Part shown: one piece after another, positions 34,540-61,802 of the stretch | Position numbering within the stretch: position 1 is the first letter of the stretch | Layout: each line of letters begins with the position of its first letter | Source: Methanomassiliicoccaceae archaeon DOK | GTDB taxonomy: Archaea > Thermoplasmatota > Thermoplasmata > Methanomassiliicoccales > Methanomethylophilaceae | Length of the DNA: 64,000 nt | Assembly (NCBI GenBank): GCA_009911715.1 | Contig: CP047880.1 | Location: forward strand, 1,550,001 to 1,614,000 | Direction of reading: 5' to 3' | Notes under the pieces: model-generated | Databases searched by the model: none | Told to the model about the DNA's origin: nothing | Seen by the model: only the letters and a program-made list of their open reading frames with translations | Made by a program: the position numbers and the translations under genes

Positions 34540-36618
34540 GTGCAAAGGGTATCGGCTGCGAAGCTTCTGAATGGCAAGCGTGTCAAGGATTTCGTGGGAA
34601 GACGCGAGATCATCCTATTCATAGGCGCAGCCATAATTACCCAGATCGTCTCCAGCATCAGCTACCAGCTGCCCGTCAACATAATGCCGAACCTGGCGCT
34701 CTGTCCCGTTATCGGCCTGCTGTTCGGTCCCTTCGCTTCGCTGGGCGTCAACCTGGTCAGCCTCATCGACAACGTGTACATGGGGTACTCGCCGCTCTAC
34801 TGCTGCCTGAACCTCCTCACGATGTTCCTGACATCGTACATCCCGTACAGGCTCTGGTACAGCGTGGGCCTCGACAGGGACGACCGCCCGCCGGTCCTGG
34901 ATTCCGTCCGCAACATCACCAAGTTCGTCGTGATGATGATGGTGTCCAGCCTTGTGTACACCGTGCTGTACAACATAACGTACGGGCTCACGGACGGACA
35001 GTTCATCCTCAACTTCGAGGACGTCGTCCGCTTCATCAACGTGCTCTCGTTCTCGTTCCTCTTCGGACTGGCTGCGATCCTGCTTCTGAGGTACCTCGGA
35101 ATAAAGTTCTACAGCCCGAAGTTCGGAGGCACGCCCGACGACTTCAGACGCTCCGTCGACCCCAGGTTCTACGACATGATCCTGGTGCTCGGGATCCTGC
35201 TCCCGCTACTGGTCCTCAACCTGTCGCCAACAGGACCGGCCATCCCCGCGATCGGGGTTCTGACCTATGCGCTGCTGTTCGCTTTCCTGCTCAAGCCCGT
35301 GGAGTCCGCCAGTATGGACGAGCTCACGGTCAGGATCAAGGGACTCGAGATCAACAAGTTCAACAGGAGCCTGATCGAGCGCATGATCGTGATCTTCATC
35401 ATCTACGGTCTGCTGATCTGCCTCGCTTTCGGAGCGGCGGCTTCCATCGGGATCCTGAACGACGTGTTCGGATGGGGATACGACATCACGGTCCTGTTCT
35501 ACATGAGCATGGGGCTGCTGGTGTTCTTCGTTCCGGCCATGATATTCCTGTGGTACCTCGAGAAGTACGTGACGGACCCCGTGGGAGAGCTGTCTGAGGC
35601 CTCGAGGAACTTCATCAGCAGCGACCACGAGTTCTCCAGCGAGGAGTTCGAGTACAGCTGCAGGGACCTGGTCAACCAGGACTCCGAGATAGGGGAGCTC
35701 GCCAGGTCCCTGACGAAGATGACCGGCGACATAGAAGAGTACGTCGAGGACCTGAGGATGCTGAACAGCCAGCAGGAGATGTACAGGGCGGAGCTAAACG
35801 TCGCCAAGAACATCCAGGAGTCCTTCGTGCCCACCAACTTCTCAATAGTCGACGGCAGCGGCGCGTCAATCGCCGCGGTCATGGATGCGGCGAAGTACGT
35901 CGGAGGAGACTTCTACGACTTCTTCATGATAGACACCGACCACCTGGCGATATCCATCGGAGACGTGTCCGGGAAGGGAGTGCCCGCCGCCCTGTTCATG
36001 GCCGTCACCAAGTCCCTGATCGAGGGACAGTCCCGCCCGGGATTCACCCCCGACGAGATATTCAGCAAGGTCAACATTGGTCTGTGCAGGAACAACGAGG
36101 AGTTCATGTTCGTGACATCCTGGTTGGGGATACTGGAGCTCGAGACCGGAAGGCTGACGTACTGCAGCGCCGGCCACAACCCCCCGGTGCTGATTAGGCT
36201 CGACCAGGACCCGGTGCTCCTCACCACCAAGCAGTGCCTGGTCCTCGGAGCCAGGGAGGGCATAACATACACCTCCGACGAGATAGTGATGGAGCCTGGG
36301 GACAGGATCCTGCTGTACACGGACGGTGTCACCGAGGCGAACGACCACTTCGACAGCTTCTATCAGACTGACCGTCTCATGGCGAAGATGAAGGAGTGCG
36401 ACAGCATGCCCCTCGACGACCAGATACGCGCGATCGTCGACGACATCAATGAGTTCACGAAGGGAGCCACCCAGTTCGACGACATGACAATGCTGATGAT
36501 GAGGTACGACGGGAAGAAGAAGTCAGCTGAGGCTCTTCTCGATCGTGAGGACGTTGCGCCCTCCGTCGCGCCTGTAGCTGATGCCGTCGACGTTCCTCTT
36601 GACAAGGAAGATTCCTAA
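34540..36618 (+). CDS. Membrane SpoIIE/RsbU-type serine phosphatase
   Basis: A 692-residue protein that starts at a GTG. Residues 20-350 hold about ten membrane spans (an ECF-S/MASE-like first half, then a second membrane block), followed by a HAMP-like segment (EKYVTDPVGELSEASRNF), a coiled coil and a PP2C/SpoIIE phosphatase domain (residues ~420-660) with AAKYVGGDFYDFF, GDVSGKGVPAALFM and LYTDGVTEA, which carry the metal-binding Asp residues. In bacteria such enzymes dephosphorylate a STAS anti-anti-sigma factor in response to a signal. RsbW- and STAS-like genes lie next door, so they are the likely partners. Its 3' end overlaps the RsbW-like gene by 96 bases. Confidence 0.9.
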   Translation: MQRVSAAKLLNGKRVKDFVGRREIILFIGAAIITQIVSSISYQLPVNIMPNLALCPVIGLLFGPFASLGVNLVSLIDNVYMGYSPLYCCLNLLTMFLTSYIPYRLWYSVGLDRDDRPPVLDSVRNITKFVVMMMVSSLVYTVLYNITYGLTDGQFILNFEDVVRFINVLSFSFLFGLAAILLLRYLGIKFYSPKFGGTPDDFRRSVDPRFYDMILVLGILLPLLVLNLSPTGPAIPAIGVLTYALLFAFLLKPVESASMDELTVRIKGLEINKFNRSLIERMIVIFIIYGLLICLAFGAAASIGILNDVFGWGYDITVLFYMSMGLLVFFVPAMIFLWYLEKYVTDPVGELSEASRNFISSDHEFSSEEFEYSCRDLVNQDSEIGELARSLTKMTGDIEEYVEDLRMLNSQQEMYRAELNVAKNIQESFVPTNFSIVDGSGASIAAVMDAAKYVGGDFYDFFMIDTDHLAISIGDVSGKGVPAALFMAVTKSLIEGQSRPGFTPDEIFSKVNIGLCRNNEEFMFVTSWLGILELETGRLTYCSAGHNPPVLIRLDQDPVLLTTKQCLVLGAREGITYTSDEIVMEPGDRILLYTDGVTEANDHFDSFYQTDRLMAKMKECDSMPLDDQIRAIVDDINEFTKGATQFDDMTMLMMRYDGKKKSAEALLDREDVAPSVAPVADAVDVPLDKEDS

Positions 36619-36963
36619 TCCCCCCGGTTCGCGGTCCCTGACGTCCTTGCTCACATCCGGATCCCCTATCTCGAGTGGATCGAACTCCGGCCCCTTGTCA
36701 GCGAAGGTTATCGTGACCTTCATCACATCCTTCTCGACATCGCAGGATATCTCTACCTCTCCCGAGCCGGGCGGGTGGTACGCATAGCTGGAGATGTTTA
36801 TGAAAATCTCCTCGATTATGAGTTCCAGTTGCGTCAGGGCCTTGGGGGAGACTCCGCAACCCTTCAGGCACTTCTCCACGAACCCCTGGACCTCATACAA
36901 ATTGTCCTTGGAGGACGGAACGGTTAGGGACTTTGTGTCCTCCGCTCCCGCGGTACCACGCAT
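36523..36963 (-). CDS. RsbW/SpoIIAB-like serine kinase (HATPase_c)
   Basis: A 146-residue GHKL-fold ATPase: N-box ELIIEEIFINISSYAY, G1-like DKGPEFDP and G2 GGLGIFLVKRNVD. Bacterial homologues bind and inactivate a sigma factor and phosphorylate a STAS antagonist. Archaea have no sigma factors, so the target here must differ. The final 32 codons lie opposite the phosphatase gene's last codons. The start is near a STAS gene on the other strand (divergent, about 110 bases apart). Confidence 0.9.
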   Translation of the reverse strand: MRGTAGAEDTKSLTVPSSKDNLYEVQGFVEKCLKGCGVSPKALTQLELIIEEIFINISSYAYHPPGSGEVEISCDVEKDVMKVTITFADKGPEFDPLEIGDPDVSKDVRDREPGGLGIFLVKRNVDGISYRRDGGRNVLTIEKSLS

Positions 36964-37072
36964 GCGATGAAATCTGCACACCTGTTAATAAAGGATTCTT
37001 CCCTGGGAGAGGGGTTCGGGCACTGGACACATCGTTTTAAGTCCTCGCCAGCGATGTACCATATCATACGGG

Positions 37073-37399
37073 GTGACCGCATTGTTCGGCAGGAAGAAGA
37101 CCAAGGACCAGCCACTGACATCCAGCTACACCGAGACGGAAGAGGGCATAATCATCAGACTCTCGGGAAGACTGGACTCCGTGTCGTCCGCAGAGTTCCA
37201 GGAGGAGGCCGTCCAGAAATGCAGGGGCAGGTCGACCACGCTCGACATGGATGGGGTCACCTACCTGTCCAGCGCCGGACTGAGGGCCATCCTCGCCCTG
37301 GACAAGGCTGTGGGCAGGAACAACAAGCTCAGCGTCATCAACGCCAAGGACGCCGTCAAGGACGTCCTCGACATGTCCGGATTCAGCGAGTTCATCTGA
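37073..37399 (+). CDS. STAS-domain anti-anti-sigma-like protein (RsbV-like)
   Basis: A 108-residue STAS protein starting at a GTG: GIIIRLSGRLDSVSSAEFQEE and LDMDGVTYLSSAGLRAILALDKA, in which the SS pair matches the position phosphorylated by RsbW-type kinases. With the neighbouring kinase and phosphatase it makes a complete partner-switching set. The transcript probably starts at the TATA-like CGTTTTAAG (37032-37040). Confidence 0.88.
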   Translation: MTALFGRKKTKDQPLTSSYTETEEGIIIRLSGRLDSVSSAEFQEEAVQKCRGRSTTLDMDGVTYLSSAGLRAILALDKAVGRNNKLSVINAKDAVKDVLDMSGFSEFI

Positions 37400-37646: not shown

Positions 37647-37755
37647 CCCCACTTAGCTCAGACTGGCCAGAGCGGCTGACTGTAGAGTGTTTTCGGCGAA
37701 AACCGATACAGCCGCTGAAATCAGCAGGTCCCCTGTTCAAATCAGGGAGTGGGGA
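37647..37755 (+). tRNA. tRNA-Tyr (GTA) with a 34-nt intron
   Basis: The acceptor stem CCCCACT (37647-37653) pairs with AGTGGGG (37748-37754), discriminator A at 37755, and CCA follows in the DNA. The anticodon stem is GCTGA / TCAGC around C-T-GTA-G-A, with the anticodon at 37682-37684. An intron of 34 bases (37686-37719) interrupts after position 37, the canonical archaeal site. C1-G72 is the identity pair of archaeal tyrosine tRNA. The T-arm and acceptor 3' side form the attachment site of the integrated elements. Confidence 0.95.
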
Positions 37756-37758
37756 CCA
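37738..37758 (+). repeat. Attachment site copy 1 (attL of element E1, in tRNA-Tyr)
   Basis: A 21-bp core covering the tRNA T-stem 3' side, acceptor 3' strand and CCA. It recurs exactly at 44279-44299 and 61718-61738. The base to its left differs (TT in the tRNA, CC in the other two), which marks the core boundary. Confidence 0.93.
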
Positions 37759-44244: not shown

Positions 44245-45542
44245 TTTGCATGGTCCCCACAAACCCTGTCGGAGAACCCAAATCAGGGAGTGGGGACCAT
44301 CCCTTCCCACATTCCGAATTTTTTGGGAACTTAACCGATTCGTCAGACCGCTTAACCGTTTATGCTTCCGATACCCCCGTCCCGTATCAATCCTCTCCGA
44401 ATCCCACCAGATCCCGCAGGCCGAGCTTCTCGGGGGACTGGTTCGGCGAGTGGCGCTACGACCGCAAGGGGCTTCGCTCCGACCTCGCCAACGGAAAGAT
44501 CCATTTGAAGAACCGCAGGCATCAGCAGAGGTTCCTGGATTGGATGCGCGACGAGCAGATGATTGTCTTCCAGGACAAGAAGACGGGCGAGAAGGTCTAC
44601 AGCCCCGTCTGTCGCCGCGGAAACCGCCAGTACGCAATGAAGAAGGCGAGGCAACGCGACCTGTTCCTGGAGGCGTTCAGAACCAAGGAATTGGATCGCC
44701 AGATCGGCAACAATCCCAACATCCGTGAGACCTGCGCATTGCTAATCACCGTGACCTTCGACAAGAAGAAGTACACGATGGAGGAGGCATGGGGTATGCT
44801 CTCGTCCACGGAGATCGCCAGCTCTGACCTCAAGACAGGGGTGCTGAACAACCTGACAGCCAATCTCCGGGACATTTTCGGGCCTCTATGCAAGATCACC
44901 GTCAAGGAGGCCCAGGAGGACGGCTATCCCGCGCCGCATCTGATCGTCCTCCTTGACAATCCGACGACCGTCAAGCTCCATCGCGGCAAGGGTGGCCAGT
45001 CGTGGCGCATCTTCGATCCCCACACACTCAGACGCATCGGCAAGGACCCGGCGCTCCGCAGACTTTCCAGAATCCGCCATATAGATGCAATCTCCATGAA
45101 TCCTATCTGGAAGTACGGATTCATAGATGTTCAGGGTGTTGTGAAGGGATGCCGCTTCAAGAACCGCAAGGACGCCGTCAGTTATGCGTACAAATATCTC
45201 ACAAAGTCCCTGACAGACGACCACTGCAGGGAGCTCGAGGACCTCGATTCGATCTCCGAATGCAGGACCAAGAGCCTCCGCATATCCCTCTGGGGACACC
45301 TCTGCAACAAGTCCTATGGTCTGAGGGACATCACTTACGGAAGAAAGGTCAAGGAGTTCTTGAGCATGCTGCCTGCCGAGAACATGGACGGAGAAAATAC
45401 AATGGAATCTAGATGGACATTCATGAGAACTATCCCCTCGTTCGTCTATGAGAAGATCGTCATGTGGAATGCCAGGAAGATGTTGCGTCCATTCAGATCC
45501 AGACCAGAGACCTCCGACGCCAATCCATCACCAGCTTTCTGA
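44241..45542 (+). CDS. Rep-like protein of E2, reading through the att site
   Basis: A 433-residue protein, homologous over its length to the E1 copy. It begins at an ATG overlapping the E1 integrase stop (ATGA), so residues 1-14 are coded to the left of att and residues 14-20 by the att core itself. A second ATG lies at 44250. Motifs ALLITVTFDKK, YPAPHLIVLLDN and VSYAYKYLTKSL suggest a Rep of rolling-circle type with a degenerate HUH motif. Only the tandem position gives it a start codon here. Confidence 0.75.
   Translation: MICMVPTNPVGEPKSGSGDHPFPHSEFFGNLTDSSDRLTVYASDTPVPYQSSPNPTRSRRPSFSGDWFGEWRYDRKGLRSDLANGKIHLKNRRHQQRFLDWMRDEQMIVFQDKKTGEKVYSPVCRRGNRQYAMKKARQRDLFLEAFRTKELDRQIGNNPNIRETCALLITVTFDKKKYTMEEAWGMLSSTEIASSDLKTGVLNNLTANLRDIFGPLCKITVKEAQEDGYPAPHLIVLLDNPTTVKLHRGKGGQSWRIFDPHTLRRIGKDPALRRLSRIRHIDAISMNPIWKYGFIDVQGVVKGCRFKNRKDAVSYAYKYLTKSLTDDHCRELEDLDSISECRTKSLRISLWGHLCNKSYGLRDITYGRKVKEFLSMLPAENMDGENTMESRWTFMRTIPSFVYEKIVMWNARKMLRPFRSRPETSDANPSPAF
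44279..44299 (+). repeat. Attachment site copy 2 (E1/E2 junction)
   Basis: Identical 21-bp core to copies 1 and 3. Its left flank continues the integrase end; its right flank begins the E2 rep coding region (att codes K-S-G-S-G-D-H in the rep frame). Confidence 0.93.
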
Positions 45543-56812: not shown

Positions 56813-58423
56813 TCAGATTTCGCGCCTGCTCTTGACGATCAGGAGTATGGCCGCTATCACAACGATGACGCCGATTATCGCAGCCAGCCAGAGGGTGCTG
56901 TTGCTCGACCCCTCCCCTTCAGGTTCGGCATCCGGAGTGTCGTCGTCTCCTCCCGGGACATCCGGGGTGTCGTCATCACCGCCAGGCGTCACACCGGGGT
57001 CGTCGCCTCCGGGCTGACCCGGCACATCCCTGATGTATCCGCAGCCGTTGTTGCATTCGGCATCGTATTCGTTGTCGAACACATGGCCGACGGTGGCGCC
57101 GGCGGCGGCACTGTTGCCGTTGCAGACGCCATTGAACGCTGACGGAGAGATGGAGGCTACGGTTGAAGGTATGGTGACCGAGGTCAGGGAAACGCAGTCC
57201 TCGAACGCATACATCCCGATTATCGTCATGCCGTCAGGTATGTTTACCGTCTCGAGCGACTTGCATCCGGAGAACGCATTGGCCCCGATCGTCGTCACTC
57301 CGGACGGTATCGCATATGCACCTCCCCTGCTGGCAGGGAACTGGATCAGCGTCGTCATTTCCTTGTCGAACAGCACCCCGTCCTTCGAGACGTAGTTCGC
57401 GTTGCCGGAATCCACGTCTATCCTGGTGAGGGACGTGCAGTAATCGAACGGACCGTATCCGATAACGGTCACGCTTGAAGGTATTGCGACCGTCCCGAGG
57501 GATGTGCATCCTGAGAACGCATAGTTTCCGATCTCCTTCACTCCGGACGGTATAACGATCGATTCGAGTGATTCGCATCCTGCGAACGCAGAGTCATAGA
57601 TCTTTGTCACGCTTGAAGGCATGACGATCGATTCGAGCGACGTGCATCCTACAAACACAGAAGACGAGATGTATTTCAGGCCATCCGATATCTCGACGGA
57701 CTTGAGCGACTTGCATCCTCTGAACGCCTCCTGGTACAGGTCGGTCACGCTTGAGGGTATGGCGACGGACGTCAGCGACGAGCATTCTTCGAAAGCGGAA
57801 GCCCCGATCGTGGCTACGGAGTCAGGTATGGCGACCGATTCGAGCGACGTGCATCCCCTGAAAGCGGAAGCCCCGATGGACATCACACTTTCCGACATGT
57901 CGACGGACTTGAGCGACGAGCAGTCGTAGAAAGCTGAACCGCATATGCTGATCACGCTGTCCGGTATGTCGACGGATTTGAGCGAAGTGCATCCCTCGAA
58001 TGTATTGAAGCCAATTACCGTCAAGCCGTCCGGTATGGTGATGGATTTGAGAGACGAGCATCCGTAGAACGCGTAGGAACCGAGTTCGACAACTTTGTAT
58101 GTGACGCCATTGTATTGGACCGTCCCGGGGATATTGACCGAGACTACAGAAGGGTCGACGGCGACATCTCTGACGTTGCTGGTACCGACTTGTACGGTGC
58201 TTCCATCCGCTTTGATCATGTATTCGATATCTATGCCGTCCCCATTCGCAACGGTGAAGGTGTCCCCCGCCTCCGCATAACCGTCATCGCTTCCGATGCC
58301 GATGACAAGGGCGACGCTCGCGGTCACGAGAATCAACGCCAGTGCGAAAGTCATGACGCGGTCGCTCCTCCTCGACGATGGGATGAGGTCCCGCATTGAA
58401 ACATCATTACTTTTAAGAGTCAT
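56813..58423 (-). CDS. BspA-like leucine-rich-repeat surface protein
   Basis: A 536-residue protein. Residues 20-42 form a signal/anchor segment (TFALALILVTASVALVIGIG). Residues ~100-440 are a run of about 14 BspA-type LRR_5 repeats of 23 residues, each like SLESVAIPDSVATIGASAFE. A Pro/Gly/Asp linker (PGGDDPGVTPGGDDDTPDVP) follows, then a C-terminal membrane span and basic RREI end. Such proteins are displayed on the surface of gut microbes and may bind host or microbial ligands. TATTTATAG near 58445 supports the ATG at 58423; a second ATG lies at 58396. Confidence 0.9.
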   Translation of the reverse strand: MTLKSNDVSMRDLIPSSRRSDRVMTFALALILVTASVALVIGIGSDDGYAEAGDTFTVANGDGIDIEYMIKADGSTVQVGTSNVRDVAVDPSVVSVNIPGTVQYNGVTYKVVELGSYAFYGCSSLKSITIPDGLTVIGFNTFEGCTSLKSVDIPDSVISICGSAFYDCSSLKSVDMSESVMSIGASAFRGCTSLESVAIPDSVATIGASAFEECSSLTSVAIPSSVTDLYQEAFRGCKSLKSVEISDGLKYISSSVFVGCTSLESIVMPSSVTKIYDSAFAGCESLESIVIPSGVKEIGNYAFSGCTSLGTVAIPSSVTVIGYGPFDYCTSLTRIDVDSGNANYVSKDGVLFDKEMTTLIQFPASRGGAYAIPSGVTTIGANAFSGCKSLETVNIPDGMTIIGMYAFEDCVSLTSVTIPSTVASISPSAFNGVCNGNSAAAGATVGHVFDNEYDAECNNGCGYIRDVPGQPGGDDPGVTPGGDDDTPDVPGGDDDTPDAEPEGEGSSNSTLWLAAIIGVIVVIAAILLIVKSRREI

Positions 58424-61688: not shown

Positions 61689-61802
61689 GTGACCCTCTCA
61701 AACACGGTCCCCGAACCCAAATCAGGGAGTGGGGACCACTACCCCCTCCTTTCTTATACTTGGATTCTTCCAAAATTTAAACGTTATAGGCATTCCCATT
61801 GA
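61689..61802 (+). pseudogene. Rep N-terminal remnant of E3
   Basis: From a GTG at 61689 the frame codes VTLSNTVPEPKSGSGDHYP, matching the rep N-terminus through att, and stops at 61802. The rest of rep is absent before the hairpin block at 62155, so rep in this element was deleted or replaced. Confidence 0.55.
61718..61738 (+). repeat. Attachment site copy 3 (E2/E3 junction)
   Basis: Identical 21-bp core. Left flank CCGAACC is like that of copy 2 (GAGAACC); right flank differs, marking the start of E3. Confidence 0.93.

Follow-up and report, generated by a model that had tools for sequence, protein, structure and literature searches.

A 64,000-nt stretch of the chromosome of Methanomassiliicoccaceae archaeon DOK (contig CP047880.1, positions 1,550,001 to 1,614,000; hereafter the window, numbered from its first letter) carries three adjacent genes that resemble the components of a bacterial partner switch: a membrane phosphatase of the SpoIIE type, an RsbW-like kinase and a STAS-domain protein. 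An initial annotation, made from the sequence alone, had proposed such a module at this site. The open reading frames (ORFs) and their Pfam matches bear out the adjacency, and the locus is organized as follows.

34540-36618, + strand: SpoIIE-type PP2C membrane phosphatase, 692 aa (PF07228, 1.7e-52)
34588-35115, + strand: N-terminal sensor domain of the phosphatase, six transmembrane helices and a predicted energy-coupling factor (ECF) S-component fold, residues 17-192 (AlphaFold2 model and VIA-align)
35866-36513, + strand: PP2C/SpoIIE catalytic domain of the phosphatase, about residues 443-658 (PF07228, alignment and Foldseek)
36523-36981, - strand: HATPase_c_2 kinase of the RsbW/SpoIIAB type, 152 aa (PF13581, 1.1e-22)
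36982-37072, no strand: intergenic spacer from which the kinase and STAS genes diverge, 91 bp (from the sequence)
37073-37399, + strand: STAS protein, anti-anti-sigma-factor-like, 108 aa (PF01740, 2.3e-14)

The kinase gene is antiparallel and convergent to the phosphatase gene, the 3' ends of the two overlapping by 96 bp (36523-36618). Past the PP2C domain, the phosphatase tail is encoded antisense to the C-terminal end of the kinase. A similar tail-to-tail overlap (about 90 bp) is found in a related genome, G099, and none in G097, G074 or G100. Within the 91-bp intergenic region, A+T-rich stretches lie upstream of both the kinase and the STAS starts, and the region may serve as a promoter for either gene. 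Just upstream of the triad are a PAC2-family gene and the gene for aIF2-alpha, which identify the locus as archaeal chromosome. The genome consists of one contig of 1,889,135 bp (99.79% complete). As each of the three families has exactly one match genome-wide, the presence of several competing modules is ruled out.

Assignment of the phosphatase to the SpoIIE/RsbU type is supported by a PF07228 score of 178.6 bits, against a gathering cut-off of 25. The metal-ligand aspartates of the PP2C domain (D457, D460, D475, D595, D647 and D648) are all present and are invariant across 41-42 related sequences; they fall within the motifs GGDFYD (455), GDVSGKG (474), YTDG (593) and DDMT (647). By Foldseek, the domain resembles the phosphatase domains of RssB, SiaA, SpoIIE and Rv1364c (E 1e-9 to 1e-12). 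In the AlphaFold2 model, the protein is arranged as an S-component-like sensor, additional transmembrane helices, linker helices, the PP2C domain and a 34-aa tail.

The sensor, residues 17-192, is modeled as a six-helix membrane domain (pLDDT 87.8, pTM 0.82). In VIA-align, the first 22 ranks are all taken by ECF S-components or their near relatives, with Z scores of 15.1-10.0 over some 150 of the 176 residues, among them ThiT, RibU, FolT, PanT, transition-metal S-components and BtuM; the next unrelated entry has a Z of 8.4, on a scale where helical bundles may reach 13 through arrangement alone. Among 12 members of the sensor family, four match the Pfam family QueT (best 2.8e-9) and one matches ECF-ribofla_trS (2e-6). 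Foldseek alone gave weak matches (E 0.03 and above) and a search of PDB sequences with the sensor profile gave none; the fold assignment therefore draws on the VIA-align scores, the Pfam matches of the homologues and the confidence of the model. Together these identify the predicted structure as an ECF S-component fold, and on account of this fold the phosphatase probably senses a small molecule through its N-terminal domain. In two bacterial loci (L121:2758-3600 and L132:11747-12745), an S-component-like membrane domain appears to be joined directly to a HATPase domain, so that kinases, too, may bear such a sensor.

The kinase (PF13581, 80.8 bits) has an N-box with E58 and N62, a D95-x-G97 motif and a GGLG sequence at 120-123. 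These features are kept in all 32 free-standing homologues, save for one substitution in the glycine box. In the STAS protein, the loop YLSSAGLR contains a serine pair, S66/S67, the second member of which (codon 37271-37273) aligns with the phosphoserine of SpoIIAA (S58 position; structures 1th8, and 1tid, which carries Ala there) and is the same residue in all 42 related sequences. Ser67 is thus the predicted phosphoacceptor, in line with the serine pair that the initial annotation had placed at the phosphorylation position. With the catalytic residues of all three proteins present and conserved, the description of the module as complete holds as well. By sequence, the solved structure closest to the kinase is that of RsbW (6m36), yet the kinase falls well below the NCBIfam equivalog cut-offs (38.9 bits against 155 for RsbW, 15 against 135 for SpoIIAB); the STAS protein scores 54.3 bits with TIGR00377, just above the curated cut-off of 53.45. 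Judged by these scores, the triad proteins are not orthologues of RsbW, SpoIIAB or SpoIIAA but members of a different subfamily sharing the same machinery.

The three genes behave as a unit in related genomes. Of 42 related phosphatase ORFs examined in the order Methanomassiliicoccales (one interrupted gene in G093 enters the count twice), 23 are fused to a kinase domain and 13 have a kinase gene within 1 kb, 36 in total; a STAS gene lies within 4 kb of 34. Across 147 genomes of the order, SpoIIE-type proteins occur in 37, STAS proteins in 41 and both in 35 (Fisher 3e-25, kinship ignored), a co-occurrence analysis that the initial annotation had suggested as a check. Across 33 systems, the three proteins diverge in a correlated manner (Spearman 0.53-0.58, with 0 of 2000 permutations as high), the orthologous locus of G099 has the same triad layout, and one relative carries a natural STAS-HATPase fusion (G100, L075:7735-9507). 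Domain matches, conserved residues, linkage in relatives and co-occurrence together rule out chance adjacency or misread ORFs. Among 389 genomes sampled from the phylum, strong SpoIIE-type matches are confined to this order and one further genome, the remaining matches being weak and in short frames.

Maps of the neighborhoods in relatives, covering up to 19.5 kb, revealed a recurrent association with small-molecule genes, which are found within 8 kb of 28 of the 42 phosphatase ORFs. Four types can be distinguished: (i) two-module nonribosomal peptide synthetases (NRPS) made up of condensation, adenylation and carrier domains plus a terminal reductase domain; (ii) enzymes of the GH3 family, accompanied by RimK-like ATP-grasp ligases and ABC transporters; (iii) LuxE, LuxC/AMP-binding proteins, a MATE exporter whose C-terminus is a HATPase domain and a protein with an N-terminal HATPase, whose remainder, lacking a Pfam match, we read as GNAT-like; and (iv) a Peptidase_C39 ABC exporter pair together with a radical-SAM-like protein and with a peptide of 92-94 aa with a leader ending in GG. 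Peptides of this last kind, with a Nif11-like leader and a Cys-containing core, are present in G077 and G087 (L101:1475-1753 and L090:11650-11931) and also in G076; with the radical-SAM-like protein, the C39 exporter pair and the partner-switch module, they possibly form an archaeal cluster for ribosomally synthesized and post-translationally modified peptides. SpoIIE-type proteins are present in 13 of 14 genomes with a two-module NRPS and in all six with GH3, and the biosynthetic genes of G074 share their direction with those for STAS and the kinase. In the HATPase-STAS pairs located beside alaS (G095, G096, G098 and G102), no candidate output was recognized.

HATPase and STAS domains are also found fused to proteins of these same classes. 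A single scan of genome contigs returned mostly loci of Firmicutes from gut and rumen, of Treponema and of others, in addition to loci of Methanobrevibacter and Methanoflexus. In the set of bacterial and Methanobrevibacter loci, MATE-HATPase fusions occur at 17 of 80. A HATPase is fused to GH3 in Methanobrevibacter (L127), to an AMP-binding enzyme at L145 and probably to an ABC ATPase at L171, the latter matched only by a profile built in this analysis; at L158 it is a STAS domain that is fused to an AMP-binding enzyme. HATPases of kinases, free or phosphatase-fused, keep the E, N and D positions in 74 of 74 cases. In contrast, effector-fused HATPases keep the N-box Glu and often lose the Asn (kept in 15 of 28 MATE-fused domains) or the glycine box. 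Such partial degeneration is what docking would predict, and it suggests that the effector-fused domains are receivers of STAS rather than kinases. In the open literature, subscription papers being outside the coverage, we found no description of exporters and adenylating enzymes that carry a fused HATPase or STAS domain. A separate group of fusions, between STAS and an APH-type phosphotransferase, lies beside SpoIIE loci of gut Clostridia and relatives (L139:11679-13241, L126:2512-4254, L149:10731-11903 and L169:9878-11041; APH assigned by Pfam in L126 and L139, and by similarity to these two in L149 and L169). The L139 protein ends in a C-terminal HATPase and the L126 protein has an HD domain.

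Because the module clusters with biosynthetic and export genes, and because HATPase and STAS domains are fused to the products of such genes, the most likely outputs would be enzymes and exporters. The initial annotation had suggested that a general transcription factor or an enzyme might be the target in place of a sigma factor. To our knowledge, archaea lack bacterial sigma factors, and no cognate sigma factor gene was seen among the annotated neighbors of the triad, a genome-wide search not having been made; a non-sigma output is supported. As for the two substitutes, the enzyme gains support from the co-clustering and from the fusions to MATE, GH3, AMP-binding, GNAT-like and ABC proteins, and the transcription factor gains none. 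A transcriptional output, in which the kinase or the STAS protein would sequester an archaeal general transcription factor or a conventional regulator, is in our view rather unlikely: among those recurring neighbors that could be identified, none was noticed to be a transcription factor (not every neighbor is annotated), and wherever a HATPase or STAS domain outside the module has an identified fusion partner, that partner is an enzyme or a transporter. It retains the analogy with RsbW-sigmaB and SpoIIAB-sigmaF (PMC8256260), the fact that searches for NRPS, GH3, C39 and receiver HATPases did not find the target in the window genome, and the precedent of the authors of the Methanobrevibacter ruminantium study, who likewise spoke of regulating NRPS expression (PMC2812497).

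The window locus differs from those of many relatives in that no NRPS, GH3, LuxC/E, radical-SAM/C39 or MATE genes were seen there, and the link to natural-product genes that many relatives display is missing. Condensation (NRPS), GH3 and Peptidase_C39 domains are found nowhere in the window genome, and a profile of effector-fused HATPases matches only the kinase itself. When compared with the orthologous triad of G099, at a synonymous divergence (dS) of about 1, the ratio of nonsynonymous to synonymous substitution rates (dN/dS) is 0.14 for the phosphatase, 0.24 for the kinase and 0.23 for the STAS gene, against 0.08 for the flanking PAC2 gene and 0.07 for aIF2-alpha. The triad is thus under purifying selection, weaker than that acting on its housekeeping neighbors, and these values do not support its being a decaying set of pseudogenes. 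We give little weight to the idea that the triad is left over from a biosynthetic cluster that was lost together with its target. The absence of biosynthetic genes of the linked kinds agrees with it, as do the excess of dN/dS over the flanking genes and the absence from the window locus of two genes, c65 and c12, found between kinase and STAS in G097 and G100; but the catalytic residues are all intact, the dN/dS values are those given above, and the triad layout persists in G099. Since the linked families are absent while selection continues, the target of the switch in this species would be unlinked.

The c65 and c12 genes form a divergent pair encoding uncharacterized membrane proteins, which also adjoins the module in G076, G077, G087 and G102. 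The window genome has a related pair of divergent membrane genes about 51 kb away (G000:C1:1535489-1536334 and its divergent neighbor; the pair is L191:8439-9956). That this retained pair is the target seems improbable to us. Its linkage to several module loci, the co-direction of c65 with the kinase gene and of c12 with the STAS gene, and the presence of the pair in eight of nine genomes having this phosphatase type are in its favor. However, relatives of c12 occur in 65 of 147 genomes, many of them without SpoIIE or STAS, making the association weak and the pair too widespread to be a specific output.

We lean, with somewhat better than even confidence, towards a ligand-gated partner switch whose effectors are enzymes or exporters of small-molecule pathways, controlled post-translationally, with the effector unlinked in the window species. 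The S-component-like domain would bind a small molecule in the membrane and adjust how active the cytoplasmic PP2C domain is. Ser67 of the STAS protein would be phosphorylated by the RsbW-like kinase and dephosphorylated by the phosphatase, and its phosphorylation state would decide whether the STAS protein remains on the kinase or engages an effector. The effectors, most likely enzymes and exporters of natural-product-like pathways rather than transcription machinery, would be controlled after translation, through fused HATPase or STAS domains. In the window species, the linked pathway is absent and the switch, retained under selection, would act on an unlinked effector. Several points weigh against this scheme. 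With no NRPS, GH3, C39 exporter or receiver HATPase in the window genome, the class of output is inferred from relatives only. Control of MATE or GH3 proteins by STAS or by a fused HATPase is itself something we infer. In G099, the orthologous triad adjoins a second triad and its GH3 cluster, and it may be to this second triad that the cluster really belongs. The window phosphatase has no QueT match of its own by sequence, only its homologues and the predicted fold pointing that way. Finally, the correlated divergence and the Fisher values owe part of their strength to shared ancestry.

More tentatively, STAS and HATPase might constitute a portable docking pair that gates exporters and adenylate-forming biosynthetic enzymes directly. 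An active HATPase, free or phosphatase-borne, would write phosphate on STAS, the S-component-sensing phosphatase would erase it, and the degenerate HATPases fused to MATE, GH3, GNAT-like and AMP-binding proteins would read it, in a post-translational system common to gut bacteria and archaea; the window genome would keep writer, eraser and messenger with a different reader. If true, this would explain post-translational control of small-molecule production in gut methanogens and gut Firmicutes, and the S-component sensor would offer a handle on the trigger.

The triad shares with RsbU-RsbW-RsbV and SpoIIE-SpoIIAB-SpoIIAA the three domain families, the catalytic motifs and the phosphoserine position. 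It differs in having no sigma factor gene among its annotated neighbors, in its S-component-like sensor and in scores that fall far short of the equivalog cut-offs for RsbW and SpoIIAA. Mycobacterium tuberculosis Rv1364c (3ke6), which is among the best sequence and fold matches, likewise combines RsbU and RsbW domains, but it is bacterial and a single polypeptide; we know of no S-component sensor on it. The initial statement that bacterial versions control sigma factors is true of some only: SiaABC-SiaD, HsbRA-HsbD, BgrUWV-BgrR and SypE-SypA are partner switches with non-sigma output, acting on diguanylate cyclases or unknown biofilm targets (PMC7647112, PMC8256260). These are bacterial and have other sensors, although SypE unites kinase and phosphatase in one protein (PMC12826045), like many relatives of the window module.

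A regulator-NRPS link in a methanogen has been proposed before. The NRPS clusters of M. ruminantium M1 (mru_0066-0071 and mru_0513-0516) contain serine phosphatases, an anti-sigma-factor antagonist and an anti-sigma kinase beside NRPS, NRPS-associated and MatE genes, and sensing and regulation of the NRPS by these proteins was proposed in 2010 (PMC2812497). This is a related archaeal partner-switch set, and the Methanobrevibacter and Methanoflexus phosphatases (L127, L111) have the sensor domain of the window phosphatase; in contrast, the window triad stands alone, without NRPS or MATE, and its phosphatase and kinase genes are convergent. Use of the S-component fold as a receptor, including mainly archaeal 5TMR-PPM fusions that place an S-component-like membrane fold on a SpoIIE-type phosphatase, was reported in 2024; we know of no link drawn there to a kinase, STAS or biosynthetic clusters (PMC11109136), and in Pfam the sensor family described here is nearest to QueT, not to 5TMR-LYT. 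Beyond these two papers, we found no description of archaeal partner switching in the open literature, to which the search extended. Partner switching is known almost wholly from bacterial sigma-factor and cyclic di-GMP control. A complete, single-copy archaeal set represents a minimal case in which a bacterial-type sigma factor is impossible as output, and its relatives indicate where outputs should be sought: among those exporters and biosynthetic enzymes that carry a HATPase or STAS domain.

Downstream of the triad, two tandem integrated elements are attached to a tRNA-like gene (37650-61740). This gene (about 37650-37757) seems to contain an intron and is not called by ARAGORN. Its 3' end, AAATCAGGGAGTGGGGACCA, is repeated at about 44280-44299 and 61719-61738. 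The first element, about 6.5 kb, encodes a REP-like protein, Vsr, a DNA methyltransferase-like ORF, an HpaII-type restriction enzyme and an integrase (43282). The second, about 17.4 kb, contains a related REP-like region, a second integrase-like ORF (60722) and, at 56813-58423, a BspA-type leucine-rich-repeat protein (PF13306).

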